Assembly (NCBI GenBank): GCA_914767715.1
Contig: OU612065.1
Location: 31,310,001-31,374,000 of the forward strand
Reading direction: 5' to 3'
Origin: Membranipora membranacea
Taxonomy: Eukaryota > Bryozoa > Gymnolaemata > Cheilostomatida > Membraniporidae
Length of the DNA stretch: 64,000 bases
This document shows positions 9,511-56,241 of this stretch, piece after piece. The position numbers were made by a program, and so were the translations under genes. The stretch's first letter is position 1. Every line of letters starts with the position of its first letter. Below the pieces are notes generated by a model. It searched no databases, was not told where the DNA came from, and saw only the letters and a program-made list of their open reading frames with translations.

Positions 9511-12392
9511 TATCAGCATGGAATTTTTGATTTGTTATGGTGAATGAATTTTGTGTTTGATTAATCGGACTGTAATTTGGAGTTGTTCACTCCTTGTCTC
9601 AAATCCCAAATAATAAAATATCCTCCAATTTTCTGTTTTAGAATCCGCGATATGTATGGTTCAAGTAGTGCAAATGCAATGGTAGCAGATCTGGACTTAT
9701 AATTGCTGACAATTCGGTTATTAAAGAGAGACTTCAAAAACACAACTGAACTGTTGATCAACAATACCTCAGCGGTAAGTAGAGCTACTATCGTACAATG
9801 TGCGCTAGCCTCAACTACTGAGCACTGGTTTAGATTTGAGTTTGGTGCAATTCTCGGTGGAATTGCTCAAGGATTTATTTTAAACAATAATAACAAAATA
9901 TAAATATGGTTCTATTCGTCAGGCAATAAATCAATCAATAATTTTACAATAATATCTTAGCATTTATCATTTAGTCATAAAAATACATAAACATTCAAAA
10001 TCTTTATAATAAGATCTTACCCTTGGTGCAGATGACCTCGAATTCAGTGTGATATTCAGTGTGATATCTCTGTGTATTGAAACTATGTTAGACTGGGTTC
10101 CTCGCTGTGAGTCACGGTATATGTATCTCTTTATATCTAAGCTATGTTAGACTAAGTTCCTCGCTGTGAATCGCGGTATTTGTATCTAAGCTATGTTAGA
10201 CTGATTTCCTCGCTGTGAATCGCGGTATTTGCATCTAAGCTATGTTAGACTGATTTCCTCGCTGTGAATCGCGGTATTTGTATCTAGGCTATGTTAGACT
10301 AGGTTCCTCGCTGTGAATCGCGGTATTTGCATCTAAGCTATGTTAGACTGATTTCCTCGCTGTGAATCGCGGTATTTGTATCTAGGCTATGTTAGACTAA
10401 GTTCCTCGCTGTGAATCGCGGTATATGTATCTCTTTTATCTAAGCTATGTTAGACTAGGTTCCTCGCTGTGAATCGCGGTATTTGTATCTCTGTATATCT
10501 TGCCAAAAGCTCTGTTGGCTGAATGTGTCTAAAGTTTTTAGACAATTTTCCTCCCTGTAGATGTGCCTCCTTGGGCTGACTGAATCAGATAATTCTCTGA
10601 TTAAATCTGTAATGCTGTACGTCGTTAACCCGCTCTCTGGCGCTGACTGAATTTGTTATCTTCTTGTTGAAGAATAGGCCTCCTTGGGCTGAGTGAATCA
10701 GATAGTTATCTGATTAGATGTGTAACACAGTATGTCGTGAACCCGCCTCCTGGCGCTGACTGAATTTGTTATCTTCTTGTTGAAGAATAGGCCTCCTTGG
10801 GCTGAGTGAATCAGATAGTTATCTGATTAGATGTGTAACACAGTATGTCGTGAACCCGCCTCCTGGCGCTGACTGATTTTTACAAGTGTCCATCAGGCTT
10901 TTATAGTGCTGGTTTGCTGTCCTGTTATTGTGCAACGTTTGCATTTACAGGTGTAAAGGTGTTTACCTTGTTGTTGGTTTTAGTCTCAATTTCGTCATTA
11001 CTCTCTTTTGATTTGCGTGTTTTGTCAGTTTTAATTATCTAGCTGTCAAAACATGGTTAGTCTGTCCTTTGCTTGACCTTACCTCATTTTTGTTTTGGTT
11101 ATTTTTAGGTAATTTATGGTGTCAAGTGCACCTGTTTATCCATGGTGTAATCTGTTGGTTTTCCTGATTTTGCAATCTTTCCAGGGTTGTTTTGAAGATC
11201 TTTAGTGACTTCTATTGCTCGTTATTTTCAAAATAGCTTATGGTGTCAACTGCACTTGTTATGTGCAATATATTGGATTTCTAATTTCGCAATCTTTCCA
11301 GGGTTGATTCACGTGCCCAAAGATCTCGTGACTCTGTGGTTATTTTGAAGATGTTTTGTGACTTCTGTTGTTTTCCCGTTGTTTGATTCTCCACGGGTTG
11401 TTGCACGTGCCCAGATTTCTCATGGCTATGTGATTATGTTTTGTTATATTTCAATACTCCCTCAGTGTATTATTCCCTCTATTTACTACAATATTACTAT
11501 TTTCCATTACCATCTAGCCTGTGTCTAGATAAATCTCAATAATGATAACCTATGATGTTTAAGCCTTAACCTAAACTACCCGTCACCATGCACTGAATGC
11601 CTAAGTATGTATCCGTTGGGTCTCAGTTTAAGCTCTTAGTAATAATTGAATTTAAACTAACTTTACTTTGTTTTGTTTTACAGATTATGTGGGTTAATGG
11701 TGATCTCCTGTCTTCACAGTACAGTGTGCAAGTTTAAATATCTAAAGAATACTCTACCATACTACTGTCAGAACTCATCTCATATCTATAACTTTGAAGT
11801 CTTTGGTTCTCATATCATCAATTCGAAGCCAGCGAACAAGCAGCAAAGCTCTCACAACAAGCAGGTCAAGCCTATAATAATCACGCCGAAACAGATCACC
11901 ATAGCTATTCAAATTGACAACATGTGGATGACAATGGAACTTATGAGAAAAAAAATATAATCAGAAACCAGTGCAATTTGTGTTATAATGTCTGGTGACC
12001 TAGAGTTCACCCTTAGTCTTAGCTTTTGACTTTTGCACGCTCATTGTTTTTCTCCGCTTTTGACAGGTGTCATATTTTATGGGAGTTCTAATCCAGCTTA
12101 TGAGTGGTTATCAATTTTTATGGTTGCGGTCCAGGGTCTGGTTTATGAAATGTGTTGGTTGAATATTAACACGTTATTCACTACACTGTGTCTTTATATG
12201 ATATGTGATTGACCTTTAGTTTTGTACTGTCCCACTTAATAATAAATCATTTGAGAATAAGGATACTTCAATACCATGCTGTGTGAGTGATCGTTGCACA
12301 TTCGGAAGAAAATATGGTTGCTCTTATACACTAAGGTAATTATAAAACATGATGTCCTTCATGATGATTACATAAGAAAATGTCATCTGACA
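9511..12392 (-). repeat. LTR (5' LTR in element orientation)
   Basis: Partner of 629-3510 with the same length. Both contain the minisatellites, here at about 10080-10494 and 10562-10882. Confidence 0.93.
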
Positions 12393-13208: not shown

Positions 13209-14067
13209 ATGGCAGAAGCAGCAGATTCCACCCAGTATCCTGTCTGGTTAGGAGAAGATAATAAACTCTGCTATGATCAGACTGGACTAGAGTATCACCT
13301 CCTACATGTACTCAACTATAACCAGGATGATGTACTAAGAGTTATACAGCAGATAGCTCAGCTTCTGAATTGCTCAGAATTCTGGTTCAGCGCAGCCAGT
13401 TTTACCTCAGCTGAGACCCTCAATGCTATATTTAAGTCTATGAGACATGATCAGTTAATAACACTGTTCAGATCTGAGAATAATTATGTTTGGACAGCAC
13501 TGTATTGTTGTGGAAGAAGTGACATAGTGAAGCTGATATTAGACTGTGTAAATGAAGAGGAATGTTACCAGCTTCTCAGTAACAAAAATCATAAAAATCT
13601 GACACCTCCTCTCCATCTGGCATGCATGCTTGGTGTCACAGAGTCAGTGAGGCTGATAATGGACAGTGTTAATCAGGATATGAGATACTCTCTACTACAG
13701 ATGACAGATTGTGATGATTATAATCCACTACACCATGCAGCAGTGAGAGGTCCTACTGATATCCTGAAGATAATGAATAACTCTGTAACAGAGCAGCAGT
13801 GGATTAATCTTCTACAGATGAAGGACATTGAAGGATATACAGTTCTACACACAGCAGCGTTATCGGGTAATAATCAAATAATGATAACAATAAGAGATAC
13901 TGTAACTAATGATGTGTGGCTGCAGTTACTCTCTACTCCTCTACCAGAGTATGATCCTTATTATGATGGTGATGATGAAGACGACTACCGACAGGCCACC
14001 AGGTGGATGGATGATTTCAGAGCCACTGCAAAGATCGACAAGGCTCTCACTGAAACTGACCAACAAG
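13209..14067 (+). CDS. ANK-caspase A, exon 1 (ankyrin-like module)
   Basis: Starts at ATG 13209 and encodes residues 1-286, ending in a phase-1 donor (CAACAAG|GTAAAT). Residues 1-90 form a conserved family N-terminus with PVWLGEDNKL and helical segments and no known domain. Residues ~95-230 hold about four ankyrin-like repeats of 37-40 residues (TPPLHLAC, NPLHHAA and TVLHTAALSGN mark the first helices), each with an extra helix ending in LL. An acidic stretch and a basic helix close the exon. Ankyrin repeats bind proteins, so this part probably senses or recruits a partner (inference). Spliced with 16040-16464 and 16721-17092 it gives about 551 residues. Confidence 0.88.
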
Positions 14068-14657
14068 GTAAATTTTGTTATATAATATATTATTTCTAGG
14101 ATACACAGCAGGAATTCGTTGGTGCTGGCAATGTACTGAATATTATAGATTACTATTAGATATGCAAATAATCTCTGCCTCGTATTTATTTGATGCAAAA
14201 CCGACATTTTTTCCCCTTATTATAAATAGGACTGGTATCTATATTTTGACAAAAATTCATCTATAGGCTGTTTAGCTGCAGCCAGGGCCAAGTAATTTGG
14301 AATGAGTTAAAGATCGTTATTAGTTTATTCACTGTTGTAAAACTGAAAGTGAAAACGTAACAGTTTATTAGAAAGTGGGAAAACACTGATTTGAATGACG
14401 AGAAATACATGGGAATGAACAGCAAATAACAATCCAAGCGATATTTACCTCATTGGATCCTTTACATAAATGTGGTTACAGCTATGTATTAGGTGAAAAC
14501 CATTAATTTGCATATATAAATGGTGAGCTGCCACATACAACTGACTGTAATTAGTCATTGTGGAGAAAATAGAGAAATATAATCACATTCAAAGAATAGC
14601 TGAAAGCTAAATAGCCTTCGTGGTTGTTGATATTGATTTTAGACCTGCAGCTAAACT

Positions 14658-14686
14658 CCCCCCCCCCCCTCCCCCCCCCCCCCCCC
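14658..14686. repeat. Poly-C tract
   Basis: A 29-base C run broken by a single T. The complementary strand is G-rich and could fold into a quadruplex. Confidence 0.9.
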
Positions 14687-14791
14687 GCAATGATGCGTCA
14701 TTCCAAACAAAACATAACATTAAATAATATAATACAGATTTCTAAGCCATTGAAGTTTTCGTTCGGATGAAGTGTCAACATCATACAGTCT

Positions 14792-15304
14792 TTACATACA
14801 ATGCTGAGAGATACCTGGATCAAAAACTAAGCGCTGTGTCATTAGTGGGACTGAATGTTGGCCGAGCGGTAATGAAAGACACCAACACCAAGACAGATAG
14901 CGATAACTCAGTTTTGTAACAGTGTCCTTGTATACAAGAATAAGTTGAGTAGGTTTCTTGGCTGCATGTATATTTTCTGAACTTGTATTAAGTTCAGCAA
15001 AGAGTAAGTCACAAAGAGATGCAGCTTTGATTTCGTTGTCCATAGACTGGTAAAATATATTTGAGTCTGAAGTATGCCCAATAACATCAGCTCCAATAGA
15101 TGAGGCAGTATTGACAGCCTGGCGCACATGAATGATCAAAGCAGTCTCTGAACTTAATGTATCGGATCCCAGTATTAAATTTATCATTAGTACCATCAAG
15201 TTATTATACGGGTATAACATAAACATAACTATTGCCGACCACTCATGGGGGACAATGGTTCTTTTTGCCTTACGTATCCTCACCCCATCACTACCAATCT
15301 CCAC
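14792..15304 (-). other. Open frame of unknown nature in caspase intron
   Basis: A 170-codon frame on the strand opposite gene A. It has a mixed composition without low complexity, with an ALIIHVRQAVNTASSIGADV segment. I recognise no domain. It is absent from the shorter introns of genes B and C, so it may belong to an inserted element or be chance. Confidence 0.2.
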
Positions 15305-16039
15305 TTATTAATATCCATTGATTTCCCAGAACATTGGCCTTTCAATCGGAAGTGTAATAAGAGCTGACTGTAAAGTGAAACTTACATAATGTAAACTGAC
15401 CATATAAACTTGTTAGTGGTTGCTACTAAAAAGGTCAGATCTCAAACCTATCATCGGTGAATCTTTCGATAGCTCCCTGGAAATATGAACACAAAACATT
15501 AATTTCAGGTTTATATACAATTGTAAATCTTCATTACGTGTAAAATTAGGAGTGTAGTTTGTCGTAGGTATGATCATGTTTGGTGTTTCCTCTAGCAGAG
15601 GCTTTTGGTTCGAAATTTGTTATAAAATGTTATGGGATCCTCAATGAAAGATAATTATTTTGTGAAATGTGTACAGGTAGAGAATGATCCAATCACCAAA
15701 ATGGGTTTTTTGTAGAGGAAAGCTGAGTCCTGGCAGCGCTGGCAACATAATAGGGCACTAAAATACAGTTAAAAACCATAAATAAAAGATGTCTAAAACA
15801 TTAATTTCAATGCTTTTCAGACTGCTAACTTTCTGCAACTGGATGCATTTTATAATTCAAATCGGGTCACAAAGTACCTGGGACTTGGGGTCCTGTAACA
15901 TTTCTATATACTGCACTGAGAATGAGTAGTTAGTACAAGCAACAGCATGGCTGTGTCTTCATAAATCAAATGAAACCAACTTTCTAATAGTTTTTTTTTT
16001 AAATACGTGGTTATCTATTATTGATGGTTACTTTTACAG

Positions 16040-16464
16040 ATCTGCTGATTCAGAGACAGAATATCACAGAGACAGAGTCTCTAACTGTAGATCAGATACA
16101 GGTGTTGTCTCCTCTCAGCACACAATACATAATCCCATACAAGCAGGAGAAGAGTAAGAGATACGGTCTGATACTGTTCAGCTCTGAGAACAGGTCCGGA
16201 GCAGCTGCAGAAGCAGATGATCTGGAACAGGCTCTGGAGGCAGCGGGTTGTGAGGTGATGAAGATGGAGTGGTATGAGGCCAGAGAACTTCAGGGTATGA
16301 TCGACAGTGCTATGGATAGGATTGTAGGCGACTGCTCACTGCTGATTGTGTGTTTGATGTCTCATGGCTCTAGAGGTGTACTGAAGGGACAAGGAGGAGA
16401 AGAGATTGCAGTTTATGACATTCTACACCAGTTCACCTACACTCTGCCTGAATCAGTACCACTA
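16040..16464 (+). CDS. ANK-caspase A, exon 2 (p20, catalytic His)
   Basis: Acceptor CTTTTACAG and donor CTA|GTAAGA give a 425-base exon covering residues 287-428, in frame with exon 1. It begins the caspase p20 fold: RYGLILFSSEN is the first beta strand, then a DDLEQALEAAGCEV helix, then LLIVCLMSHGSRG, where His395 is the expected catalytic histidine. The exon length is the same in genes B and C. Caspases are cysteine proteases cutting after Asp in cell-death and immune signalling. The substrate here is unknown. Confidence 0.9.
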
Positions 16465-16720
16465 GTAAGATAATCTTACCATTAACACTAACACTCCCTG
16501 GCTATTTGTACACCTATGTTTTATTCCCACAATTTCTCAAGCTGGAGCAATAAATATGTTTTTCAACTTTTAATTGGTTATTATTGAACGTAACCATGTA
16601 GCCCACAATGCAATTTTCTGGAATTCCCAGGCAAGGCCAAGAATAATATACATGTGATAGGCATGATGTCACTTATAACCAGGTCAAGGTTTTACATGGT
16701 GGGATTATCTCTTATTGCAG

Positions 16721-17092
16721 ATAATGGTTATCCAGGCTTGTCAGGTGTTCTCTACACATGGTATGCTGCCACCTGCAGATGACAGTGAGTCAGATGCACC
16801 GACACCCAGCAGTGTACTCGACCCTCATCTGAACAAACACATAGTTCTACGGAGACGCCATACAGCACTTCTCATGGCCACAGTAACGGGTGGTCTGGCC
16901 TACAGAGGGGCATTTACAGGAGCCATAGCTAATGAGTTCAGAGAGGCTGATGGTAAGAAGGATATCTGTAGTATGTATATACATGCTGTAGCAGATCCAG
17001 CCTGCAGAGAACAATGTCCTGAATTCAGAATGACTCTAGATAAAACTCTGATACTTCCACCTGCTGTCAATCATTCTGCTACACAAGGCTGA
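16721..17092 (+). CDS. ANK-caspase A, exon 3 (catalytic Cys and p10)
   Basis: Follows acceptor TTATTGCAG in phase 0 and ends at TGA. IMVIQACQV carries the expected catalytic Cys435. The family motif is QACxG, and here the last position is Val. An Asp- and Ser-rich linker (residues ~447-463) is a plausible self-cleavage region between large and small subunits. Residues 478-530 match the p10 pattern, with ATVTGGLAYRG, where Arg490 may take the role of the substrate-pocket arginine. The C-terminus is short, with no extra domain. The gene reads as intact and functional. Confidence 0.88.
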   Translation: MMVIQACQVFSTHGMLPPADDSESDAPTPSSVLDPHLNKHIVLRRRHTALLMATVTGGLAYRGAFTGAIANEFREADGKKDICSMYIHAVADPACREQCPEFRMTLDKTLILPPAVNHSATQG

Positions 17093-17869: not shown

Positions 17870-19258
17870 TAAGGTAATGTCAAAGACCGATCCGAATATC
17901 AATATATCATATACCGTTGGAAAGCTGCCGAGCTACTGAAAATGAATAGCTGAACAAAAACTTGATTCGATGACGTTGTGTCATTTGAGGGAGGAAATGA
18001 GACAGAAAACGCTCTTTTTTGTCAATGCAGATTGAGCAGTCAAATTAATAATTGCAAGAAATTTCAAAACATGTGGAATGTATACTTAGAGATTGCGTTC
18101 ATCATAAAATTTGATTTTCTCTGATATACGACTAGTCTAAATTGACTTTTTACGTCACGCCATACAACGCATTTATTTTGTGAAGCCGTGAAAATATGTG
18201 AAATTTCAACATTAATTCACAACAGATCATAGGCTTGAATCAAAATTAATTATGATTTTCTCTTAGAGTTCTCTTCAAATGTCATACACATTGACTTTCA
18301 AAAAGATAGCTTGCATATTGCAATGACAGTAGACTCTCGAATACGGCTAATATTTTCACCACCTTTGCATAACGCCAAACATGCTGTCCAAATAACCATT
18401 ATTGTGGCCAAACCAAGTTTTTTTGAAGCTTCTCACATACGAAGCCGCTTTCATTAACCATGGTGCACACAGGAAATGCCAAGACAATTTTTCATTGCAT
18501 CTTCATTTTTTTTTAATTTAGCGCAAAAGAATGCCAAAAAACAGCTATTTTTAGGGACTTTTGAGGTCTTTTTAGGGACTTTTGAGGTGTTTTTTGGCAT
18601 TCTTTTGCGTTAAATTAAAAAAAAATGAAGATGCAATGAAAAATTATCATGGCATTTCTTATGTGCACCGTGGTTAATGAAAGTGGCTTCGTATGTGAGA
18701 ACTTTCAAAAAATCTTTGTTTGGCCACAATAATGGTTATTTGGACAGCATGTTTGGCGTTATGCAAAGGCGGCGAAAATATTAGCCGTATTCGAGAGTCT
18801 ACTGTCATTGCAATATGCAAGCTATCTTTTTGAAAGTCAATGTGTATGACATATGAATAGTACTCTAAGAGAAAATCATAATCAATTTTGATTCGAGCCT
18901 ATGATATGTTGGGAATTCATGATTGAAATTTCACATATTTTCACGGCTTCAAAAAATAAATGCGTTGTATGGCGTGACGTAAAAAGTCAATTTAGACTAG
19001 TCATATATCAGAGAAAATCAAATTTTATGATGAACGCAATCTCTAAGTATACATTCCACATGTTTTGAAATTTCTTGCAATTAATTTGACTCCTCCATCT
19101 GCATTGACAAAGACAGCGTTTTTTGCCTCATTTCCTGCCTAAAATGACACAGCGTCATCAAATCAAGTTTTTGTTCAGGTATTCATTTTCAGTAGCTCGG
19201 CAGCTTTCCAACGGTATATGATATGTTGATATTCGGATCGGTCTTTGACATTACCTTA
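17870..19258. mobile_element. Foldback element with ~650-bp inverted arms
   Basis: From 17872 (AGGTAATGTCAAAGACCG) to 19256 the sequence is a near-complete palindrome, with arms of roughly 650 bp meeting near 18560. TA flanks both ends (17870-17871 and 19257-19258). The centre has a direct duplication of TTTTTAGGGACTTTTGAGGT. There is no protein coding. It is a non-autonomous TIR element with TA preference. A transcript through it would fold into a very long hairpin. Confidence 0.9.
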
Positions 19259-21656: not shown

Positions 21657-21933
21657 CATCATATCAGAACTGGATAGTATGTTTGATGGTGAGTTGAACC
21701 TTAGTTTTATATATCGTTCGTAGTATTCATGTTTGAAACGGATTTCAAAAAGTTGTGTCCATCTTTGTTAGAATCGACCCAATAGACTTATCTTGGGACA
21801 TATCAGCAAAGGTAGATGAGACTAAGAAGCAAATAATAATGAGACGAGGCCTTGTTAACTGGGACATTTAGGAAGAACGCTACCTTTATCCTACCTCAAT
21901 TTATCTTTAGGATCATGCGGAGCAGCAATTAAG

Positions 21934-22380
21934 GTGCTCTACTTGGTGCCTTCTGAGGTATGTAAGCCTGCAGCTATGGAAGACTTTAGTGAGGTTATAA
22001 ATTTGTATCGTGATGACTTGCCGTCACCAGAGGTATTTAAACAGGAATACAAACGTTGGCAGGCCATGTGCAGGAAACTTGAGGAATTGCCTTCAACTCT
22101 TGCATCAGCTATCAAATTATGTGACTCTGACATTTATCCGAATATTTATATCATGCTATCTATCGCCTGCACGTGGCCTGTGACCAGCTTTGAGTGTGAG
22201 CGATCGTTCAGTGGACTCAGGAGGCTTAACACTTACCTTCGTGCTGCACAGAGCTCCGAGAGACTAGACGCTCTCGCCATGATGAGCATCCATCGAAGCA
22301 TGGAAATAGATGTTGAACACATTGTAAATCTATTTGCTCAGCTCCACCCACGGCGAATGGAGTTAAATATTTTGAGCTAA
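21934..22380 (+). pseudogene. hAT transposase, C-terminal remnant
   Basis: Encodes about 148 residues ending at TAA. The segment SIACTWPVTSFECERSFSGL followed by RRLNTYLRAAQSS..LDALAMMSIHR is the hAT C-terminal dimerisation region. The catalytic domain and BED finger are missing upstream, so it is a 5'-truncated or decayed copy. A GC-rich stretch at about 22590-22640 may be part of the element's 3' end. No clear terminal repeat or 8-bp duplication was found. Confidence 0.8.
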
Positions 22381-23828: not shown

Positions 23829-23906
23829 CTGTAGGCCACTGCTCACTACTGATTGTGTGACTGATATCTCATGGCTCTAGAGGTGTGCTGAAGGGACAAG
23901 GAGGAA
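23829..23906 (+). pseudogene. Caspase p20 exon relic (set 1)
   Basis: Matches the part of gene A exon 2 around the catalytic His (16325-16400), including GGCTCTAGAGGTGT and AAGGGACAAGGAGG. An in-frame TGA replaces a coding triplet just before the ATCTCATGG segment. Only this short piece of the exon survives. Confidence 0.8.
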
Positions 23907-24581
23907 GTACTACTTGCAACACTATCTCTCCAATAATACCACATAATATATTTGGACACTTATACTCTCAGGCACAAGAAACGAGCAGTTCTTTAAAACA
24001 TGATTATTAGGGTTTATGTGAATGTAACTGTATATTCCACAATGCAAACTTCTAGATTTTCCAGTAATTCCAACTGATAAGAATCATTGTTTGACACGAT
24101 GTCCTGACATGATGAGGTTGAGTTTTTATATTGCTGGAATATAATAAGTCCTACTACACACTGTGGACTATACTAGTTTTGCTCTGTCAGTCACATTCTT
24201 ATATATTTTCAGCTATCAGGTGCCTAAGTGGTCTTTCTGCTGTCTCGAATTGCCATCAGACTGGTGGTATTCTGGTTTCATTTTAAGTTCATTTTAATAA
24301 TCCCCAATGCCTGGTTGATGGACAAAACCTGTCACTTGAGTCATAGCTATTTAAATTAAAAAATAAAGCCAAAATGCAAAGCTTTCTGCAAGAATAGCTG
24401 TCTGCAATATTCCAAAATAAAACTGACCATCCCAAAACTGCCTTTCTATATATATGATACCCATAATGCAATTTGACTACAATCAGTGTGCTCTAAAAAC
24501 TGAGAGGATATTCTGAGCATAAAAGTCTGAATAGTCATGGGACCCTTTTTCTCCAGCAGCTACCCATGATTGCATCCTATT

Positions 24582-24702
24582 GCATATAATGGTTATCAAG
24601 GCTTGTCAGTTGTTATCTACACATGGTGTGCTGCCACCTGCAGATGACAGTGAGTCAGATGCACCGACACCCAGCAGTGTACACGACCCTCATCTGAACA
24701 AA
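24582..24702 (+). pseudogene. Caspase Cys-exon relic (set 1)
   Basis: Matches the start of gene A exon 3, including ATAATGGTTATC and CTACACATGGT, then breaks off just after CATCTGAACAAA. The acceptor AG is lost (GCAT instead of GCAG) and the p10 part is missing. It is a relic of an ANK-caspase gene that stood upstream of gene B. Confidence 0.8.
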
Positions 24703-25023
24703 TATTCATCTACCTTACCAACAGTATTTGCATTCCTTTTGTGTCAAGTTCAAACACACCAGCAAACCTAGGAGATATTGCTGATTATAAATCACAAAAC
24801 AAATAGCTATGCGTAGTAAAACAAGTATAGAACCTGATGTGGCGTACACAGGAACGCTACACGATCAATTCAATTAGTCCAGAAGCCAACCAAAGCTATC
24901 TTTCAGTTCCAAAATATCTCTTTCTGGCTACAATTCGGTTGTTTAGGGTACATGGATCAGCTTAGCAGTGTTCAAAACCACAAAATATTAATATAACTAC
25001 GACCAATTGGCACCGTATAATAA

Positions 25024-25505
25024 TATATAGCCTTAGCCCTCCACTCATAGCGCTTATCTATCAATCACCTGCTCTAGCACACTATTATATTATGATTTAA
25101 GTCTGTCATTAGTATAATAATCTATAGCCTTAGCCCTCCACTCATATGGGCTTATCTATCAATCACCTGCTCTAGCACGCTATTATATTATGATTTAAGG
25201 CTGTCATTAGTATAATAATCTATAGCCTTAGCCCTCCACTCATATGGGCTTATCTATCAATCACCTGCTCTAGCACGCTATTATATTATGATTTAAGGCT
25301 GTCATTAGTATAATAAAATATAGCCTTAGCCCTCCACTCATATGGGCTTATCTATCAATCACCTGCTCTAGCACGCTATTATATTATGATTTACGGCTGT
25401 CATTAGTATAATAATCTATAGCCTTAGCCCTCCACTCATATGGGCTTATATATCAATCACCTGCTCTAGCACGCTATTATATTATGATTTAAGGCTGTCA
25501 TTAGT
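25024..25505. repeat. ~98-bp tandem repeat upstream of gene B, five copies
   Basis: Five copies of a unit running from TATAGCCTTAGCCCTCCACT to TAAGGCTGTCATTAGTATAA. Genes A (about 12913) and C (about 50748) have a single copy at the same place, so the expansion is specific to gene B. It ends about 200 bp before the start codon. Confidence 0.9.
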
Positions 25506-25714
25506 ACACCTCAATAATTTCTATACTTATTATATAGACTAAGGTTGCTACTTAATGCTACTGGGAAATCCCATTTTTATCGATGAGTCATGGATTACAT
25601 CATTTTAGTAATCAAAGCCAGTTAATCTACGTAGTTCATTTTTAGTATAACTGTGGCATAGTCAAGTACTACAAATCCTCACTGACTCTCAAGTGAAACT
25701 ATTCCTCAGTTATA

Positions 25715-26606
25715 ATGGCAGAAGCAGCAGCAGCAGCAGATACCACCCAGTATCCTGTCTGGTTAGGAGAAGATAATCTACTCTACTATGATCAGACTGG
25801 ACTAGAGTATCACCTGATACATGTACTCAACTATGACCATGATGATGTACTAAGAGTAACACAGGAGATAGCTGAGCTTCTGAAGGACCAGCCAGAATTC
25901 TGGTTCAGTGCAGCCAGTATTACCTCAGCTGAGACCCTCAATGTTATCTTTATGTGTATGAGACATGATCAGTTAATGACACTGTTAAGTTCTACAGATA
26001 ATATGAAAGGGTGGACAGCACTGCATAACTGTGTACGCTTTGAAAGAAATCATATAGTGAAGCTGATATTAGACTGTGTAAATGAAGAGGAGCGTTACCA
26101 GCTTCTCAGTATCAAGGATGATACCATGAACGATTGGACACCTCTCCATTTATCATGCTCCTATGGTGACACAGAATCAGTGAGGCTGATAATGGACAGT
26201 GTTAATCAGGATATGAGATACTCTCTACTACAGATGACAGATTGGGCTGATTATAATCCACTACACTGTGCAGCAATTGAAGGTCCTACTGATATGCTGA
26301 AGATAATAAATAACTCTGTAACAGAGCAGCAGTGGATTAATCTTCTACAGATGAAGGACAATGGAGGATATACAGTTCTACACAGAGCAGCATTATTGGG
26401 TAATAATCAAATAATGATAACAATAAGAGATACTGTAACTAATGATGAGTTGCTGCAGTTACTCTCTACTCCTCTACCAGAGTTTGATCCTGAATATGAT
26501 TGTGATGATGAAGTTGAAGATGACTACCGACAAACTGCCAGATGGCTCGATGATTTGAAAACCACCGCAAAGATACACAAGGCTCTAAGTGAAACTGACC
26601 AACAAG
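25715..26606 (+). CDS. ANK-caspase B, exon 1 (ankyrin-like module)
   Basis: Encodes residues 1-297 from ATG 25715 to a phase-1 donor. It has the same arrangement as gene A: a conserved N-terminus with PVWLGEDNLLYYDQTGLEYH, then about four ankyrin-like repeats (WTALHNC, WTPLHLSCSYGDT, NPLHCAAIEGPT, TVLHRAALLGN), then an acidic linker. It differs from A by a run of alanine codons (GCAGCAGCAGCAGCA) after the start and by several repeat-surface residues. Spliced with 27239-27663 and 28026-28409 it gives about 566 residues with no stop or frameshift. Confidence 0.9.
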
Positions 26607-27238
26607 GTAAATTTTGACTCTTATTTATTTCTAGGATACACAGCGATTTGTTGATACTGTCAAGGTACTGACTACAATTGATTACTATAAGGTATGCAAA
26701 CAATTTTCTAGATGAAGGCAGACATTATTTTATTGTTTATGTGGCTGGTATAGGCCAATTTTGACCGAAACACTGAGATGCCAAATTAAATTTATAATCG
26801 ATGTCAAACCTATTTGGAATAAGAAAGTTTGAGTCAAAGCCAGTCTAATTGTAACTCCTTGGTTGAGTAAGTACTAAAATTATACCTTAGAGATTTTATA
26901 AGGTGGAAACCTAAACATTGTTTTCAACCTATTCTAACCAAATTGCATTTAGCTTAACCTTTTTTCATTACAACACTAAAGCGTAACACTTGTTAGAATT
27001 GAGCAAATTATAGTTATCTAACATAAGAAAAAAAAATTTGTCGAGAGCTACAGCTACATTGGTGCTGCCTATGCTGCCAGCAGCAGGCTTTCAGGGTCCC
27101 CTAGATCGATCCAGCCCGCAAGGTGATGCACAACCAGATTTAGAGTCCAGCCATTTTTCCATGTGAGCATAATAGTTTTGTTCACTACCTTGAATACGCA
27201 AGCGATATATTTTTTCCTGTTTCAATTACTCATTACAG

Positions 27239-27663
27239 GTAAACAAATTCTGATAAAAGAGCTTGTAAAAAATGTACCACTCACAGTTACTCAGATATTG
27301 AAGTTGTCTCCTCACAGCTCAAACTACATCATACCACACAGACAGGAGAACTGTAAGAGATATGGTCTGATTCTCTACAGCACACTCCACAGACCAGGAG
27401 CAGAAGAAGAAGCTGCAAATCTGGAGCAGTCTCTGCAGACAGCTGGCTGTGACGTCTCTAAGCTTGAGTGGTACGATGCTGGTGAGCTCCACAACATGAT
27501 TGAGAGTGTGTTGACTAGTATGATCGCTGACTGCTCACTGCTGATTGTATGTCTGATGGCACATGGTAGCAGAGGGGCTATAAAAGGAGGTTCTGGAAAA
27601 GGGATACCAGTCAATGATGTCCTTCATCAACTAAGCTTCACTCTTCCTAAAGACTTACCACTG
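27239..27663 (+). CDS. ANK-caspase B, exon 2 (p20, catalytic His)
   Basis: A 425-base exon after acceptor CATTACAG, ending CTG|GTGAGA (phase 0). RYGLILYSTLH starts the p20 fold and LLIVCLMAHGSRG carries the expected catalytic His406. Gene A has SHG at this place, the form usual in caspases, and B has AHG. The exon and its flanking introns are nearly identical to those of gene C (55071-55495), which reflects the recent duplication. Confidence 0.9.
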
Positions 27664-28025
27664 GTGAGAGATTGATAAAATAATCAGACTCAATCTTGCT
27701 ACAAACCTTGAGTATCAGCAAATGGGGCAATTCAATCTTCTTGAATTTATCTGAATATTTCTTCGACTTTTTAGGATAAATTGCATTATGGGAACTTTCC
27801 TACGCGCCCTACTTGGTGTAAATACTATTAAGAAAGCAACACACCTTTCTATAGTTCAGAGAATTGTCACTGCCTAGTTGGCTATGTTTCTTCTTATGTT
27901 AGGGATGCTATCTGCCATATCTTTAAAGATTTCCACATTGGTGATTGAGACAATTATTGTTGATTGTTCAGTAACCCTGATCGCATTTGAGTTTATAGAT
28001 ATGTACTATCATTAATATTATCCAG

Positions 28026-28409
28026 GTTGTGCTGCTTCAGGCATGCCAAGTAGCAGATGGGCCGTCTTCAATGAATTCTTCAGTCACTCCATCAGATCCA
28101 GCACCAACACAGCTGTCAGATCCTCAGAAGGATCAGCATATAACACTCACCAGACCACACACAGTGCTACTTCTAGCTTCAGTAAGAGGAGGCCTGGCTT
28201 ATAGGGGAGTGTTCACTGGTGCCATTGCTGATGAGTTCAGAACAGCCGATGGTAAAAAAGACATCTACATGATGTTTAACGCAGCCGTCGCTTCAATGGA
28301 GATCGCGTATCCAGAATGCACTACACAGAAACCTGAACTACGGAGTGTCACAACGAAGATGCTTGTTTTCCCTCCAGCTCCCCCGACTGCTAGCCAGCCA
28401 AGTATATAG
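28026..28409 (+). CDS. ANK-caspase B, exon 3 (catalytic Cys and p10)
   Basis: Starts in phase 0 after TATCCAG and ends at TAG. VVLLQACQV places the expected catalytic Cys446; as in gene A the motif ends in Val rather than Gly. The linker (SVTPSDPAPTQLSDPQKDQH) has Asp residues that could be processing sites. The p10-like part contains LLLASVRGGLAYRG and IADEFRTADGKKDIYMMF. The product ends in a short Pro- and Ser-rich tail. Confidence 0.88.
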   Translation, partial: VVLLQACQVADGPSSMNSSVTPSDPAPTQLSDPQKDQHITLTRPHTVLLLASVRGGLAYRGVFTGAIADEFRTADGKKDIYMMFNAAVASMEIAYPECTTQKPELRSVTTKMLVFPPAPPTASQPSI

Positions 28410-31935: not shown

Positions 31936-32868
31936 ATGATTGTTCACAGTGGTTATTGTCTCATCACAAACAAACTTCTTCACAAATTACAATGCGGATT
32001 TAGAGAAGGTTATTCCTGTGTTGATTCCCTACACAAACTCATTTCTGACTGTTTGTCAGCAAGATCAGATGGTCACTTTGTTGCTATGATGTTTTTGGAT
32101 TTCAAAAAATCTTTTGACTGCATCGACCATAAAATTCTTCTGAAGAAATTGACAATGTACGGTATAACGGGCAAACTGCACTCTCTCATAAAATCTTTCC
32201 TAACAGATAGGACACAATTCGTAGCTATACAACAAGGTGCAAAAAGTTCAAAAATTCTTCCACTAGACATTGGTGTCCCCCAAGGCTCAATTCTGGCACC
32301 AAGGTTATTCCTCATATACGTCAATGATCTTTTATCCTACACATTGCATTCCAAGGCATTCGCCTACGCTGATGATACAGTTTTCGTATCAAAATCTGAC
32401 CACTTTGATACACTTAATGATTTATGTGATACTGATCTACACTTGATAGAATGTTGGTGTAGGAATAATAGGATGTTGTTAAACATAAAAAAATTTCACT
32501 ATATGCTTGTACAACCCTCTCATAGAGCCACATCTTTAGATTTAGATCTAAAAATTAACCATAAAAGATTAAACAGAAATGCTAATACCAAACTCCTTGG
32601 TTTTACTTTGAATGACTCATTGACATGGGACGATCATGTAGACCAGATTTGCACCAAAATAAACAAAAGTTTGGCATTATTCCAGAAATGCAGGTCATTC
32701 CTAGATAGTAAATCATCTCGTAACTTTTATTTCCAGTATGTCTTTTGTCATATGATATATGGCATCCGCATATATGGCAACCTATCACCACAATATATTC
32801 TTGAAAGAATATACTTGCTCCAAAAGAGGGCTTTCCGCCTAATAGCAAATGTCAACCACCTATCATAA
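31936..32868 (+). pseudogene. LINE reverse transcriptase fragment
   Basis: The longest surviving frame of the truncated LINE, about 300 residues. It has RT motifs in order, with AFAYADD at about residue 143 and a thumb-like C-terminal region (KLLGFTLNDSLTWDDHVDQI). No start codon of its own is expected because the 5' part is missing. Confidence 0.85.
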
Positions 32869-47869: not shown

Positions 47870-47948
47870 TGCTGTAGGCCACTGCTCACTACTGATTGTG
47901 TGACTGATATCTCATGGCTCTAGAGGTGTGCTGAAGGGACAAGAAGGA
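47870..47948 (+). pseudogene. Caspase p20 exon relic (set 2)
   Basis: Partner of 23829-23906 with the same in-frame TGA before the ATCTCATGG segment, so the damage predates the duplication. Confidence 0.8.
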
Positions 47949-48634
47949 AGTACTACTTGCAAGACTATCTATCCAATAATACCACATAACATATTTGGAC
48001 ACTTTTAATCTCAAGCACAAGAAACGAGCAGTTGTTTAAAACATAATTATTAGGGTTTATGTGAATGTAGCTGTATATCCCACAATGCAAACTTCTAGAT
48101 TTTCCAGTAAGTCCAACTGATAAGAATCATGTGTTTGACACGATGTCCTGACATGATGAGGTTGAGTTTTTATATTGCTGGAATATAATAAGTCCTACTA
48201 CACGCTGTGGACTATACTCATTTTGCTCTGTCAGTCACATTCTTATATATTTTAAGCTATCAGGTGCCTAAGTGGTCTTTCTGCTGTGTCGAATTGCCAT
48301 CAGACTGGTGGTGTTCTGGTTTCATTTTAAATTAATTTTAATAATCCTCAATGCCTGGTTGATGGACAAATCCTGTCACTTGAGTCATAGCTATTTAAAG
48401 TACAATATGAAAGCCAAAATGCAAAGCTTTCTGCCAGAATGGCTGTCTGCAATAGCTATAATTACAATAATTATGCACATACTGACAAATAATACTGATT
48501 ATATTATAAAAAAACTGGTCCTTCAAATTTCTCATTGCATGAAAAAAATATTCCAAAATAAAAATTACCATCCCAAAACTGCCTTTCTATATATGTGATA
48601 CCCATAATGCATTTTGACTACACTCAGTGTGCTC

Positions 48635-50198
48635 CATAGAGTCATTATATACTCTAGAGTGGACAATGCAGTGCTAAAAACGTCCTACTTAATTATTGCG
48701 AAATCCATGACACACCGCAATCTGGTTGTGCATGGCTAGCGCCTGTATCATATAACTTATCATTGAGAATATACGTATTGGGCATGGCAATTTAGATTTT
48801 CAGAGCTCTTATAGCCATTTTTTGTGGAACATTTTTTTTATGACAGCAAGGTAGTTACAGCAGGTACTTTCTCTTTCTATTCCATGAAGCAACAAAATCT
48901 GGTTGTGCGTGGATAGTGCATGAATCATTGACTTTTTCATTTGAAGTATTAGACTTAGACATTCAAATTTAGTTTATGGAGCACTTATAGCCATTTTTTT
49001 GGATAATTTCACATGTAACACCATTGACATCACCTGCAGGTATTTCATCTTCCAGTCAGTATAAAAATTTTCTTATTCGCCCATTAAAATGTATATATAT
49101 CAACCGCAAACACATGAGCTTAAATCGCAATGACAGGGCTTTGACTGTGTCCTGTCGCTCTAACTAATATGTCGCACACTCAGTCGGTTTATTTTATCTG
49201 TTCAGTTCCAGCTAATGAGGATGATTTGTGATAACATGGGGTACAGGTAGCCTGTGGAAAAGCGATTGGAGGTGAAAAAGTTTGCTGCTTTCTTTTATCG
49301 TCTATAGATTTTTTAGCAATATCTTTGTATAACTTTTCATTTCACACTATTAGATGACTTGCAAGTGAGTTCTTTAACAGTCAGGGGACAAAAATGATTT
49401 GTGTTATCCCCTTAAAACACTAAAAATCTCAACCGCCAACACATCATCAGGATAAAATCCGAATTACCTGGCTAGCCGGTTTTTGCCCCTACTAATTGCC
49501 TGCCAGTTTAACTGTGTCCTTTCTCTCTAACTAAAATGTTACACACAAGGTGATTTCATTTTATCTGTCCAGTATTGTAACTTCATATAATACAATGCGT
49601 ATAAGTAACCCGTGGTTCAAAAATGTTGAGCTTAAAGATCTCGGGTTTTGGTTTGGCGATGTCATTTAACGCTCTAAATTCCTTCTGCGGGGTAGCCACT
49701 CGTGTTTGTATTGAAACTATTCAAGCCAACACAGCAGGTTAAATCAATAAATACCTAAATACATACTCTTCTGCTGAGTCGCTGAATATCAAGAGAACGT
49801 CAAATGGAAAACTCAAGATTCATTCCCTAACTCAGTCTGGAAAATTGTATGAAAATTGCAGTAAGTTATCAGTTACAACACATCATGTAGAAAACACCAT
49901 AATATTGCGTCTTTGCAACTCCCATCTTCAGTTGAGAAGAGTACAGAGGGCGTAATGGGAGACTTTAATAATTTATTTGTCACATAAAAATCTTTCCAAA
50001 AAAATGGGTATAAGCAATCTAAAAATCTCAATTTCCATACCCATTACGTATATTCTCAATGATAAGTTATATGATGCAGGCACTAGCCATGCACAACCAG
50101 ATTGCGTTGTGTTATGGATTTCGCAATAATTAAGTAGGACAAAAACTGATGCTATTTTTGTACACATTGTCCACTCTAGAGTATATAATAACTCTATG
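48635..50198. mobile_element. DNA element with inverted ends and 8-bp target duplication
   Basis: Begins CATAGAGTCATTATATACTC and ends with its near-complement. GTGTGCTC flanks both sides (48627-48634 and 50199-50206), and the empty site survives in copy 1 at about 24490 (CAGTGTGCTCTAAAAA). An 8-bp duplication is typical of hAT elements. The arms pair imperfectly over about 170 bp. No transposase is encoded, so it is non-autonomous. Its interior (49200-49823) matches window positions 1-624. Confidence 0.88.
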
Positions 50199-50298
50199 GT
50201 GTGCTCTAAAAACTGAGAGGATATTCTGAGCATAAAAGTCTGAATAGTCATGGGACCCTTTTTCTCCAGCAGCTACCCATGATTGTGTCTTATTGCAG

Positions 50299-50416
50299 AT
50301 AATGGTTATCAAGGCTTGTCAGTTGTTCTCTACACATGGTATGCTGCCACCTGCAGGTGTCAGTGAGTCAGATGCACCAACACCCAGCAGTGTACTCGAC
50401 CATCATCTGAACAAAT
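50299..50416 (+). pseudogene. Caspase Cys-exon relic (set 2)
   Basis: Partner of 24582-24702. The acceptor TATTGCAG is intact here, but the coding part stops at the same place after CATCTGAACAAA. The p10 part is missing. Confidence 0.8.
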
Positions 50417-50502
50417 ATTCATCTACCTTACCAACAGGCAACAGTATGTGCATTCCTTTTGTGTCAAGTTCAAACTCACACCAGCAAACCTAGGAGATAT
50501 TG

Positions 50503-51045: not shown

Positions 51046-52330
51046 ATGGCAGCAGCAGCAGCAGCAGCAGCAGATACCACACAGTATCCTGTCTGGTTAG
51101 GAGAAGATAATAAACTCTACTATGATCAGACTGGACTAGAGTATCACCTGATACATGTACTCAACTATAACCAGGATGATGTACTAAGAGTTATATAGCA
51201 GATAGCTCAGCTTCTGAATGACCAGCCAGTATTCTGGTTCAGTGCAGCCAGTGTTACCCAGCTGAGACCCTCAATGTTATCTTTATGTGTATGAGACATG
51301 ATCAGTTAATAACACTGTTAAGTTCTACGGATAATAGGAATGGTTGGACAGCACTGCATAACTGTGTATTGTGAGGAACGGAAATTGTTGTCCTATCCTA
51401 TACTAAAGTATATGTTCCGTCCTACTTATAAATTGGTTCTAACTATGTTTGTAGTTATGGTTTTAAATCTTGCACTCCGGACCCTTCAAAATGTCACTTT
51501 ATTGTGTAATTTATTTGTAGTTCTAATTTGGAGTTACCTCCTCTTTCATGCACTGAAGAAAGACAAGATCGCTCAAATCTATTAAAACGTGGTTCCAATT
51601 GGTAATGCTAGCACTCTGGTGAGTACGAGGTATTTAACTTATTAATTTCTAGTGACGAACAGCTGGTTCCCACTACTCCACAAAGCAATTTACTACGGGG
51701 TTGTTATTGAGCCTGACCTCTTCTTAGCTTCACTAGAAGTTGCCTTCAAGTTGTTTAAGAAAGGTTCCTGCCGATAACCTGCTAAGACCCCTGTCTTGTT
51801 CTAACAGTAAAACTCTTGATGAGTTTCGAGACAATGCTCTTACACCACAAAGTCAATATAATCCTTAGATGTTAATATGACACAATCACTATTTATGAAT
51901 GTGTTCAGGTACGTTTGATATTTTTGTTATTCAACTTAGGTGACTGATTTTAATTATGAGCACCTACTTGATCTCTGTATAGTGCCTGGAAGCCCAATCA
52001 GGTAATCAAGGCGGTGTATCAGTATCACAGGCCTCTTAGCCAAGTTAAATTAGCTAAAGACTCCAACCCAATTTCTAGTGAAGGAAAGAGGTATCAGTCT
52101 GTGGTCACTCTAAAATTAATGTTCAATTTCTATATTCAATGTTGAATTAATGTTTCACAGATTAGAGGTATCTTATCTTAAATCGGTAGCGTCCTACTTC
52201 TTTTAAACACAAGAATCTAATCCTAAACTATTATTCCGAAGCTTAATCTATTTAGCCCCCAAGCAAATATGAATACTAATTAATACTGTTCTGCTTTGAC
52301 AATAGTTCCCAATGATACTTCTAAAAATGA

Positions 52331-52694
52331 TTTCCGACTTGATATGAGCACCTTACGCGAATTACATGCGTTTCTGGTGGGTCACAATGAATTCCGACTT
52401 GATATGAGCACCTTACGCGAATTACATGCGTTTATGGTGGATCACAATGATTTCCGACTTGATATGAGCACCTTACGCGAATTACATGCGTTTTTGGTGG
52501 GTCACAATGAATTCCGACTTGATATGAGCACCTTACGCGAATTACATGCGTTTATGGTGGATCACAATGATTTCCGACTTGATATGAGCACCTTACGCGA
52601 ATTACATGCGTTTTTGGTGGGTCACAATGATTTCCGACTTTGATATGAGCACCTTACGCGAATTACATGCGTTTAAGGTGGGTCACAATGATTA
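52331..52694. repeat. 60-bp tandem repeat in solo LTR, six copies
   Basis: Six units of TTCCGACTTGATATGAGCAC and following bases at an almost exact 60-bp period. Units alternate between a GTGGGTCAC and a GTGGATCAC form, giving a 120-bp higher-order pattern. The last unit has a one-base gain. A 115-codon frame across the array exists only because the period is divisible by three. Confidence 0.93.
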
Positions 52695-53205
52695 AACCTC
52701 CTAAAGTTAATTTTGAATCCTGTTTCAGAGTGTTGTTATAGTAACAATTAACAACGACTTACTTTAGTTGATTGCAAAATTGCCTTATAAACTCTTAGTG
52801 AATATGACCTAACGTCTGAGTACCTGACGAACTGTCCCTAATTACTTTGCAAATTACTATATGCATAGAAATCAATTACAACAGTATATTCACTAAAGTT
52901 ATTGTTTATTGTCTTGATACTTATAAAAAAAATGATAATGTAATTCAAATGATACTCACAGTATATATTGGTCCTTAGACTCCACTTTAGTGTTAGCGTT
53001 CCAACAAAGATCTTTGATTTAAAACTAGTATTTATTAAATCAAAATATAATGTCTTTTACTAGCTATGTAAAAAGTTGACTGTGCTGCTCAAAGAATTAA
53101 ACTGTACTAATTTACTGTTCAAAATTTCGGCCTTTATATAGGTGCCGATTTTTGTGCTGACTCTGCTTGTTGTCGTTTGATTAGCTGTCGGCGGATTAAT
53201 GGATT

Positions 53206-53690
53206 AGTGTCTCTTGTGGCTTTGTTATATGAAACCGTTCTGTGGTCACGTCACGTGGTATATGGCTGTTGTTCCTCAGTCTACCTTCTGGAATTTATTG
53301 TTCTATTTTTGGGCTGACTTTGTTGTTGTTACTCCATGATTAATTACTTCTGTGTCATCCTGAAGATTACTTGGTACTTGGTGCTATGACGTTTTGGAAA
53401 ACCAAATTCCTGAAGATTAATTGGTTCTTGGTACTAGGATTAGTGTCTCTTGTGGCTTAGTCATATGAATCCGTTCTGTGGTCACATCACGTGGTATATT
53501 GCTGCTGTTCCTCAGTCTACCCTCTGGAATTTGTTGTTCTATTTTCGGGCTGACTTTGTTGTTGTTACTTCCTGGTTAATTACTTCTGTGTCACCCTGGA
53601 GATTACTTGGTACTTGGTACTATGACGTGTTGGAAAACCAAATTACTGCGCCACTGGAATTCCTATTTTCTGACCGGATTAGCCTGCTGC
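53206..53690. repeat. ~238-bp direct repeat in solo LTR, two copies
   Basis: Both units run from GTGTCTCTTGTGGCTT through ACGTGGTATAT to a TTACTTGGTACTTGGT segment, with several mismatches. Confidence 0.8.
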
Positions 53691-55070
53691 GGTTATCTTC
53701 GCTACATCTTTGATGGATTACTTCTGCGTCTCTCTGCTCGTTGTGTATGCTTGTGACTACAAAATACCATGGCGGTTACTGGGTGCATTTGTATACATCT
53801 CTATCTGTACCCTCTAACTTCTGCGGCTGGCTGAATATAACTACATATCTCAAGTGCCCATTTTTGGTACTGACAGTATGCCTTGAAAGAAGTCATATAG
53901 TGAAGCTGATATTAGACTGTGTCAATGAAGAGGAGCGTTACCAGCTTCTCAGTATCAAGGATTATATCATGAACGAATGGACACCTCTCCATGTGGCATG
54001 CTTCCATGGTGACACAGAGTCAGTGAGGCTGATAATGGACAGTGTTAATCAGGATATGAGATACTCTCTACTACAGATGACAGATTGGGGTGATGATAAT
54101 CCACTACACTGTGCAGCAATTAAAGGTCTTACTGATATGCTGAAGATAATAAATAACTGTGTAACAGAGCAGCAGTGGATTAATCTTCTACAGATGAAGG
54201 ACATTGGAAGATATACAGTTCTACACACAGCAGCATATTGGGGTAATAATCAAATAATGATAACAATAAGAGATACTGTTACTAATGATGTGTGGCTGCA
54301 GTTACTCTCTACTCCTCTACCAGCGGTTAATCCTGTCAGAGGTTATGAAGATAAATACCGACAAGCTGCCAGATGGATCGATGATTGAAAACCACCGCAA
54401 AGATAGACAAGGTTCTAAGTGAAACTGACCAACAAGGTAAATTTTGACCTCTTATTTATTTCTAGGATACACAGCGATTTGTTGATACTGTCAAGGTACT
54501 GACTACAATTGATTACTATAAGGTGTGCAAACAATTTTCTAGATGAAGGCAGACATTATTTTATTGTTTATGTGGCTGGTATAGGCCAATTTTGACCGAA
54601 ACACTGAAGATGCCAAATTAAATTTATAATCGACGTCAAACCTATTTGGAATAAGAAAGTTTGAGGCAAAGCCAGTCTAATTGTAACTCCTTGGTTGAGT
54701 AAAGACTAAAATTATACCTTAGAGATTTTATAAGGTGGAAACCTAAACATTGTTTTCAACCTATTCTAACCAAATTGCATTTAGCTTAACCTTTTTTCAT
54801 TACAACACTAAAGCGTAACACTTGTTAGAATTGAGCAAATTATAGTTATCTAACATAAGAAAAAAAAATTTGTCGAGAGCTACAGCTACATTGGTGCTGC
54901 CTATGCTGCCAGCGGCAGGCTTTCAGGGTCCCCTAGATCGATCCAGCCCGCAAGGTGATGCACAACCAGATTTAGAGTCCAGCCATTTTTCCATGTGAGC
55001 ATAATAGTTTTGTTCACTACCTTGAATACGCAAGCGATATATTTTTTCCTGTTTCAATTACTCATTACAG

Positions 55071-55495
55071 GTAAACAAATTCTGATAAAAGAGCTTGTAA
55101 AAAATGTACCACTCACAGTTACTCAGATATTGAAGTTGTCTCCTCACAGCTCAAACTACATCATACCACACAGACAGGAGAACTGTAAGAGGTATGGTCT
55201 GATTCTCTACAGCACACTCCACAGACCAGGAGCAGAAGAAGAAGCTGCAAATCTGGAGCAGTCTCTGCAGACAGCTGGCTGTGACGTCTCTAAGCTTGAG
55301 TGGTACGATGCTGGTGAGCTCCACAACATGATTGAGAGTGTGTTGACTAGTATGATCGCTGACTGCTCACTGCTGATTGTATGTCTGATGGCACATGGTA
55401 GCAGAGGGGCTATAAAAGGAGGTTCTGGAAAAGGGATACCAGTCAATGATGTCCTTCATCAACTAAGCTTCACTCTTCCTAAAGACTTACCACTG
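55071..55495 (+). CDS. ANK-caspase C, exon 2 (p20, catalytic His)
   Basis: Nearly identical to gene B exon 2, with the same acceptor, length (425 bases) and donor (CTG|GTGAGA). It keeps the AHG catalytic His motif. It is open, but its upstream exon is destroyed, so it could act only through another start or a new first exon. Confidence 0.8.
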
Positions 55496-55857: not shown

Positions 55858-56241
55858 GTTGTGCTGCTTCAGGCATGCCAAGTAGCAGATGGGCCGTCTT
55901 CAATGAATTCTTCAGTCACTCCATCAGATCCAACACCAACACAGCTGTCAGATCCTCAGAAGGATCAGCATATAACACTCACCAGACCACACACAGTGCT
56001 ACTTCTAGCTTCAGTAAGAGGAGGCCTGGCTTATAGGGGAGTGTTCACTGGTGCCATTGCTGATGAGTTCAGAACAGCCGATGGTAAAAAAGACATCTAC
56101 ATGATGTTTAACGCAGCCGTCGCTTCAATGGAGATCGCGTATCCAGAATGCACTACACAGAAACCTGAACTACGAAGTGTCACAACGAAGATGCTTGTTT
56201 TCCCTCCAGCTCCCCCGACTGCTAGCCAGCCAAGTATATAG
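55858..56241 (+). CDS. ANK-caspase C, exon 3 (catalytic Cys and p10)
   Basis: Nearly identical to gene B exon 3, with one visible amino-acid change (Ala to Thr in the linker). The QACQV motif and p10-like part are intact and end at TAG. Lack of decay compared with exon 1 may reflect youth rather than selection. Confidence 0.8.
   Translation, partial: VVLLQACQVADGPSSMNSSVTPSDPTPTQLSDPQKDQHITLTRPHTVLLLASVRGGLAYRGVFTGAIADEFRTADGKKDIYMMFNAAVASMEIAYPECTTQKPELRSVTTKMLVFPPAPPTASQPSI

Follow-up and report, generated by a model that had tools for sequence, protein, structure and literature searches.

Ankyrin-repeat caspases of the bryozoan Membranipora membranacea: divergent ankyrin exons and constrained proteases in a mosaic gene family

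The stretch of DNA analysed here, called the window, comprises 64,000 nucleotides of the bryozoan Membranipora membranacea (assembly GCA_914767715.1, contig OU612065.1, positions 31,310,001 to 31,374,000 of the forward strand) and harbors a gene, designated gene A, in which ankyrin repeats precede a caspase. Read from the splice signals in the sequence, its three exons join in frame to an open protein of 551 amino acids. Intron 1 lies between AAG/GTAAAT and TTTTACAG, and intron 2 between CTA/GTAAGA and TTGCAG; alternative in-frame AG and GT positions also exist near these junctions. An earlier note, made from the sequence alone, had described an ankyrin exon spliced in phase 1 to a p20 exon with SHG and then to an exon with QAC and a p10-like half, and had called the gene complete and open. 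All of this was confirmed, including the phase of intron 1, with GT-AG junctions and a frame that is kept throughout. In window coordinates, gene A is composed as follows:

13209..14067, + strand: exon 1; N-terminal cap, four ankyrin-like repeats of ~39 amino acids (each with a third helix), C-terminal helix
14068..16039, + strand: intron 1, phase 1, GT-AG; 42/1952 bases differ from gene D
16040..16464, + strand: exon 2, caspase p20 with the Arg of NRSG and the His of SHG
16465..16720, + strand: intron 2, phase 0, GT-AG; 3/256 bases differ from gene D
16721..17092, + strand: exon 3; catalytic Cys in QACQ, linker, p10 with the Arg of AYR, stop; Peptidase_C14 match and caspase-8 alignment

The ankyrin and the caspase parts are ordinary members of their families. 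In the spliced protein, Pfam profiles match Peptidase_C14 at residues 335-538 (E 3.2e-13; 50.4 bits at a Pfam cut-off of 21.4) and Ank_2 (E 2.5e-11), so that both families, for which the earlier note had proposed a profile search, are present. Lone p10 exons sometimes fall under the cut-off (15.3 bits for the p10 of gene D, a close copy of A located 25 kb beyond the window; C2 p10 without a match). By sequence search of the PDB, caspase-8 is the best caspase for gene A (E 3.9e-9), and in the alignment the catalytic His and Cys and the Arg-Gln-Arg of the Asp pocket are present. AlphaFold2 models, predicted for exon 1 and exon 2 as separate pieces, recover both folds expected by the earlier note: exon 1 (predicted local distance difference test, pLDDT, 89; predicted template modelling score, pTM, 0.84) matches ankyrin proteins, among them FEM1B, ASB7, and IkB, and exon 2 (pLDDT 74, pTM 0.66) matches caspase p20. 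In gene A, Pfam detects neither a CARD, a DED, or a PYD nor a death domain at E up to 1, although a too divergent death fold within residues 1-60 is conceivable. TRADD-N is not among the Pfam matches of gene A either; in PMC8195603, that domain was detected by transitive profile searches.

The ankyrin-caspase fusion recognized in the earlier note thus stands, but it is not one unusual gene; gene A belongs to a multigene family of mosaic makeup, in which the ankyrin exon is divergent while the protease is constrained. A search of the 339-Mb, 18-contig assembly with exon 1 gave at least 194 matches, many of which are other ankyrin proteins (e.g., long open reading frames (ORFs) on contig C7), and loci were counted from the stretches around the best of these matches. 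There are 23 loci with ankyrin, p20, and p10 pieces in order on one strand, on contigs C1, C2, C8, C9, C10, and C11 (genes A to E plus a further one on C2, with C8 and C11 contributing five each, C9 four, and C10 three), and this recurrence makes the layout of gene A more than chance. L041, which has an ankyrin and a p10 piece and no p20 match, was left out of the 23, and at L025, L028, L029, and L030 an ankyrin but no caspase was found within 1.5-kb flanks. Across ten genes, GT or AG is at the expected place for seven exon-1 donors, nine p20 acceptors, and all ten p20 donors and p10 acceptors, the misses being cases in which the compared segment ends before the exon edge. The active-site residues are widely kept: among the pieces covering the respective site, p20 carries the Arg in 22/22 and the His in 21/22, and p10 exons carry the catalytic Cys and the p10 Arg in 19/20 each. 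In gene E, K replaces the pocket Q. Asp residues are present in the linker between the catalytic Cys and p10, which would suit self-cleavage.

Public protein relatives (16 of exon 1, 18 of p20, 106 of p10) are each about one exon long, and no relative was confirmed in IMG/VR and GTDB contigs. One of the public proteins, P0017, comes from a contig of 1145 bases and shares 99% identity with the p20 exon of gene B; therefore, this species or one very close to it is represented in a public sequence set. At L043:624-1696 (C8 ~14.857 Mb) there are two successive p20-p10 pairs without an intervening ankyrin match; the second is either a gene without a sensor or a set of alternative protease exons for one sensor.

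Two further members of the family are located in the window. Gene B (25715-28409) is open, and gene C (51046-56241) sits in a duplicate of the B region, 24-28 kb apart. Relics of an A-type protease precede both, and another one precedes gene D.

23830..24705, + strand: A-type protease relic before gene B; p20 piece 23830-23905 (88% amino acid identity to A), p10 piece 24586-24705 (85%)
25715..26606, + strand: gene B exon 1 (ankyrin); 77% amino acid identity to A exon 1, Ank_2 E 4.1e-16
27239..27663, + strand: gene B exon 2 (p20, AHG); Peptidase_C14 E 3.4e-6, 54% amino acid identity to A
28026..28409, + strand: gene B exon 3 (QACQ and p10); Peptidase_C14 E 1.1e-4, 53% amino acid identity to A
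47873..50418, + strand: A-type protease relic before gene C; p20 piece 47873-47948 (84% amino acid identity to A), p10 piece 50299-50418 (85%)
51046..54436, + strand: gene C exon 1, broken; stops, frame breaks, 2.5-kb insertion at ~51369-53875
55071..55495, + strand: gene C exon 2 (p20), open; Peptidase_C14, one synonymous difference from B
55858..56241, + strand: gene C exon 3 (p10), open; differs from B by one synonymous and one replacement change

Directly upstream of gene B lie 98-base tandem repeats (25052-25541), one copy of which is common to the regions before A and C. Within the insertion that splits exon 1 of gene C, a 60-base tandem repeat in six copies (52326-52693) is open as a repeated peptide.

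In two close gene pairs, the divergence of exon 1 is about sixfold that of the adjacent intron. Between A and D, exon 1 differs at 100/847 nucleotides (12%; 23% of residues), with 0.138 nonsynonymous (dN) and 0.127 synonymous (dS) substitutions per site, compared with ~2% in intron 1 (Fisher 4e-24). The p20 exon has 6 synonymous and 2 replacement differences (98.6% amino acid identity) and the p10 exon 1 synonymous and 2 replacement differences; across the protease this gives 4 replacement changes in 608 sites, and 1.5% of its residues differ. The 3′ flank differs at 10/500 and the 5′ flank at 15/294 positions. Along the A-D alignment in 200-base steps, exon 1 shows 11, 19, 14, and 7% divergence, 14000-14199 shows 0%, and the steps past 14199 show 0.5-6%, the 6% value falling on a C-rich tract. 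In the second pair, C8_14.914/14.919, exon 1 differs at 94/1029 and intron 1 at 6/427 positions (Fisher 4e-9), with 4/319 in the other intron; p20 is 98.6% identical in amino acids with 0 synonymous and 2 replacement changes, and p10 differs by 13%. As the 400-base flanks of this pair failed to align (57% mismatch), it has no flank control. Among 14 close pairs with p20 dS below 0.7, which are not independent of each other, dN/dS of exon 1 exceeds that of p20 in all 12 pairs where both are computable, and dS is higher in exon 1 than in p20 in eight (two of them marginally) and equal in one. The protease exons are under constraint.

When mapped on the predicted structure of gene A, the changes within the ankyrin repeats are unevenly placed. 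A and D differ at 16/34 finger residues, 14/37 residues of helix A, and 6/83 of helices B and C; the respective values are 16/34, 12/37, and 7/83 for A and B, and 13/34, 10/37, and 9/83 for B and D (B-D exon 1: dN 0.136, dS 0.108). Comparing fingers and helix A with helices B and C, a one-sided Fisher test gives 4e-6 for A-B, 2e-7 for A-D, and 9e-4 for B-D. Moreover, three different residues occur among A, B, and D at 14 positions, and all 11 of those within the repeats are in fingers or helix A (p 1.3e-4). Fingers and helix A form the usual binding face of ankyrin proteins, and it is this face that designers of artificial ankyrin proteins (DARPins) randomise. The suggestion of the earlier note that the ankyrin module serves in recognition gains support from this placement of differences between close copies. 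However, synonymous change in the repeats is raised at the same places (A-B: 11.5/45.8 in fingers and helix A vs 3/51.7 elsewhere), which makes it likely that import of divergent tracts or local hypermutation operates in addition to selection. The raised synonymous change suggests tract import within exon 1; runs tests for block-wise exchange within this exon were not significant (p 0.08, p 0.12).

The genealogies of the ankyrin, p20, and p10 exons conflict, which shows reassortment of exons among the genes. For A and B, dS is 0.17 in exon 1 and 1.22 in p20 and is saturated in p10, and their similarity stops 105 bases into intron 1. Exon 1 of A and B and the 3′ part of C group together (support 100/99), whereas in trees with public relatives (14/18 p20 and 16/106 p10 included) a grouping of A and B is rejected for p20 (approximately unbiased (AU) test, 1.1e-5) and p10 (1.4e-6). 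Family trees were built from 14 of the 23 loci, omitting C, E, C8_14.55, two C9_9.55, C11_5.17, C9_12.21, and two C11_0.18. In these trees A, B, and D form a clade in exon 1 (95/96) that is rejected for p20 (AU 0.002) and p10 (2e-6), whereas A, D, C10_12.18, and C9_14.13 form a clade in p20 (95/94) and p10 (100/100) that is rejected in exon 1 (AU 0.009). A clade of A and D alone is not rejected by the exon-1 data (AU 0.12). Furthermore, the C8 gene at 14.886 matches 14.858 in exon 1 (99.4% in amino acids) and p20 (100%), but its p10 matches 14.914 instead (97.5%), and a p10 grouping of 14.858 with 14.886 is rejected (AU 8e-4). In a comparison of A, B, C, and D, 300 protease sites unite A with D and B with C, and 0 conflict with this grouping; exon 1 has 28 sites of the uniting kind (12 from 13994 on), 10 conflicting ones, and 111 single-copy changes. 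A recent copying of a B-type sensor onto another caspase, as a way to explain A and B, was considered and dropped. Since exon 1 is near star-like among the four genes, donor and direction cannot be stated.

Judged from the gene sequences, a fusion of sensor and effector would be the simplest reading, because the face is variable, the protease fixed, the catalytic set intact, and the linker Asp-bearing. We consider it somewhat more probable than not that a diversifying ankyrin recognition module is mounted on a conserved caspase that is activated by ligand-induced clustering. Each gene would give rise to one protein, in which the ankyrin module is joined to a caspase zymogen. The ankyrin face may bind a variable partner, i.e., a pathogen, danger, or self/non-self molecule; binding would cluster the protein and pair two caspase domains, and dimerisation would lead to cleavage after Asp in the linker between p20 and p10. 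Cleavage might then set off death or immune signalling independently of any CARD or DED adaptor. Initiator caspases are activated by induced proximity, and activation of this kind would require no adaptor in the ankyrin-caspases. Duplication, exon exchange or gene conversion, together with selection, may be an ongoing source of new ankyrin surfaces for a few proteases. It is a more tentative idea, with somewhat less than even prospects, that these caspases, encoded on several chromosomes, make up an innate or allorecognition repertoire. In it, ankyrin exons that diversify fast and can be exchanged would provide the recognition surface, and a few conserved p20 and p10 exons the death protease directly coupled to it; sensor and executioner would be a single protein, and exchange of exons or conversion of tracts would give rise to new specificities.

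Several observations weigh against the variable-sensor reading. Fast divergence of exon 1 stands out in two pairs, and the picture in the others is mixed: in 5/14 close pairs dS of exon 1 is lower than that of p20, and two close pairs are almost identical in exon 1. For the whole exon, dN/dS is not clearly above 1 (A-B 0.78, A-D 1.09, C8 pair 1.07), and synonymous change is raised as well (A-D dS 0.127 vs 2.2% in intron 1), for which selection on the protein alone does not account. Loops tend to vary more in any ankyrin protein. Moreover, of the 23 loci, seven (C, E, C9_14.13, C8_14.55, C11_20.02, C11_19.96, and one of the two C9_9.55 copies) are broken or partial, and the other 16 include C9_12.21, a partial match only, and C11_5.17, in which both catalytic residues are lost. 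The latter (L042:4207-6808, C11 ~5.17 Mb) has SCG for SHG and QETQ for QACQ and contains no stops, and Pfam finds no caspase in its p20 piece; it is possibly an ankyrin pseudoprotease. Part of this would suit plain drift, in which exon 1 is weakly constrained and recognizes nothing, and unequal crossing-over and conversion have given the 5′ half (flank and exon 1) an older history or one of its own. Such a history fits the conflicting exon genealogies, the exon-1 dN/dS near 1 with synonymous change raised alongside, the A-D 5′ flank being more divergent than intron 1, the values for B-C (5′ flank 13/309, exon 1 43/561, intron 1 6/632), and the fact that loops drift fastest in any ankyrin. We regard it as unlikely nevertheless: exon 1 exceeds its own 5′ flank two- to threefold in divergence (A-B 106/859 vs 11/307; A-D 100/847 vs 15/294), helices B and C of the same repeats hold only 6-9/83 differences, and open frames are kept in A, B, and D.

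The variable face also bears on two explanations that give the ankyrin module a fixed partner. The module might block its own caspase until a ligand or a cut removes it, as it directly precedes the protease and engineered ankyrins bind and inhibit caspases; DARPin-caspase entries 2p2c, 2y1l, 2xzd, and 4lsz are among the structural matches of p20. Such a lock would have to keep fitting a protease that is near constant (A-D p20 98.6%) while the presumed binding face changes, which makes this explanation unlikely. Alternatively, the module may be an exosite or address tag that brings the protease to substrates or a cell structure without sensing. Ankyrin repeats are general binding modules, and FEM1B, ASB7, and IkB among the exon-1 matches agree with such a role, but a fixed target predicts a conserved face, whereas among A, B, and D no part varies more than the face, which leaves this explanation improbable, too. 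It is hardly conceivable that exon 1 and exons 2-3 do not belong to one gene because of misassembly or separate transcripts. The mosaic nature of A relative to B and gene models made from genomic sequence alone would allow for it; however, many loci repeat the same order, strand, and splice sites, and the public proteins P0007 (exon 1) and P0093 (p10) are each on a 4987-base contig, judged by eye presumably the same one. If the reading as a variable sensor on a conserved caspase is true, a caspase with its own variable recognition domain would unite sensor and executioner in one protein and stand alongside adaptor platforms and inflammasomes. The question of how diverse recognition is built in an animal that lacks antibodies would then become testable, because variable positions and close gene pairs are already defined.

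The remainder of the window contains several other elements. Direct repeats at 629-1998 and 9511-10880, 8882 bases apart and identical over the compared stretches, contain 49-base tandem repeats and have minus-strand ORFs between them. This looks like a recent element of long terminal repeat type, the longest ORF of which has no significant Pfam match (Retrotrans_gag E 0.49). Just downstream of gene A, an imperfect palindrome at 17870-19258, with nested arms of 346, 161, and 150 bases that are 92-99% complementary, looks like a foldback element. Pfam identifies a C-terminal piece of a hAT transposase at 21859-22380 and a reverse-transcriptase ORF at 31858-32868. Rfam and tRNA scans of the window found nothing.

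No description of an ankyrin-caspase gene family was found in a search of the open-access literature, which misses most subscription papers, nor did the direct fusion, its expansion, or its variation pattern turn up there. The nearest published accounts within that scope concern TRADD-N expansions and placozoan CARD-caspases. Animal initiator caspases are generally regarded as being switched on through death-fold adaptors. With those of the caspase-8 type the family shares the protease domain, the catalytic and Asp-pocket residues, and the p20 and p10 halves, but no CARD or DED was found here by Pfam, ankyrin repeats stand in for the prodomain, and the family has expanded and become mosaic. 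In RNase L, N-terminal ankyrin repeats bind a ligand and switch on the C-terminal effector by dimerisation. The ankyrin-caspases as proposed would likewise combine a ligand-binding ankyrin N-terminus with a dimerising effector; RNase L differs in being a single conserved gene with an RNase, an unrelated domain, as effector and a pseudokinase in between. Variation on the ligand face of a repeat domain is known from DARPins and fungal NLR-like receptors, and the variation of the ankyrin-caspases is similarly placed; however, DARPins are artificial, and the fungal receptors rely on an NTPase switch and different effectors. Lineage-specific TRADD-N/Death-fold expansions in Amphimedon and other marine animals are proposed in PMC8195603 to be sensors and effectors, with an N-terminal unit of death-fold and TRADD-N and with ankyrin repeats or a caspase as alternative C-termini. 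Lineage-specific expansion and variable C-termini including ankyrin or caspase are thus common ground, whereas the death-fold/TRADD-N unit described there (PMC8195603) has no counterpart among the Pfam matches of gene A. Placozoans, early animals, have CARD-caspases, which, according to PMC6321704, also join a caspase-like domain to an N-terminal interaction module, but in these this module is a CARD and not ankyrin.

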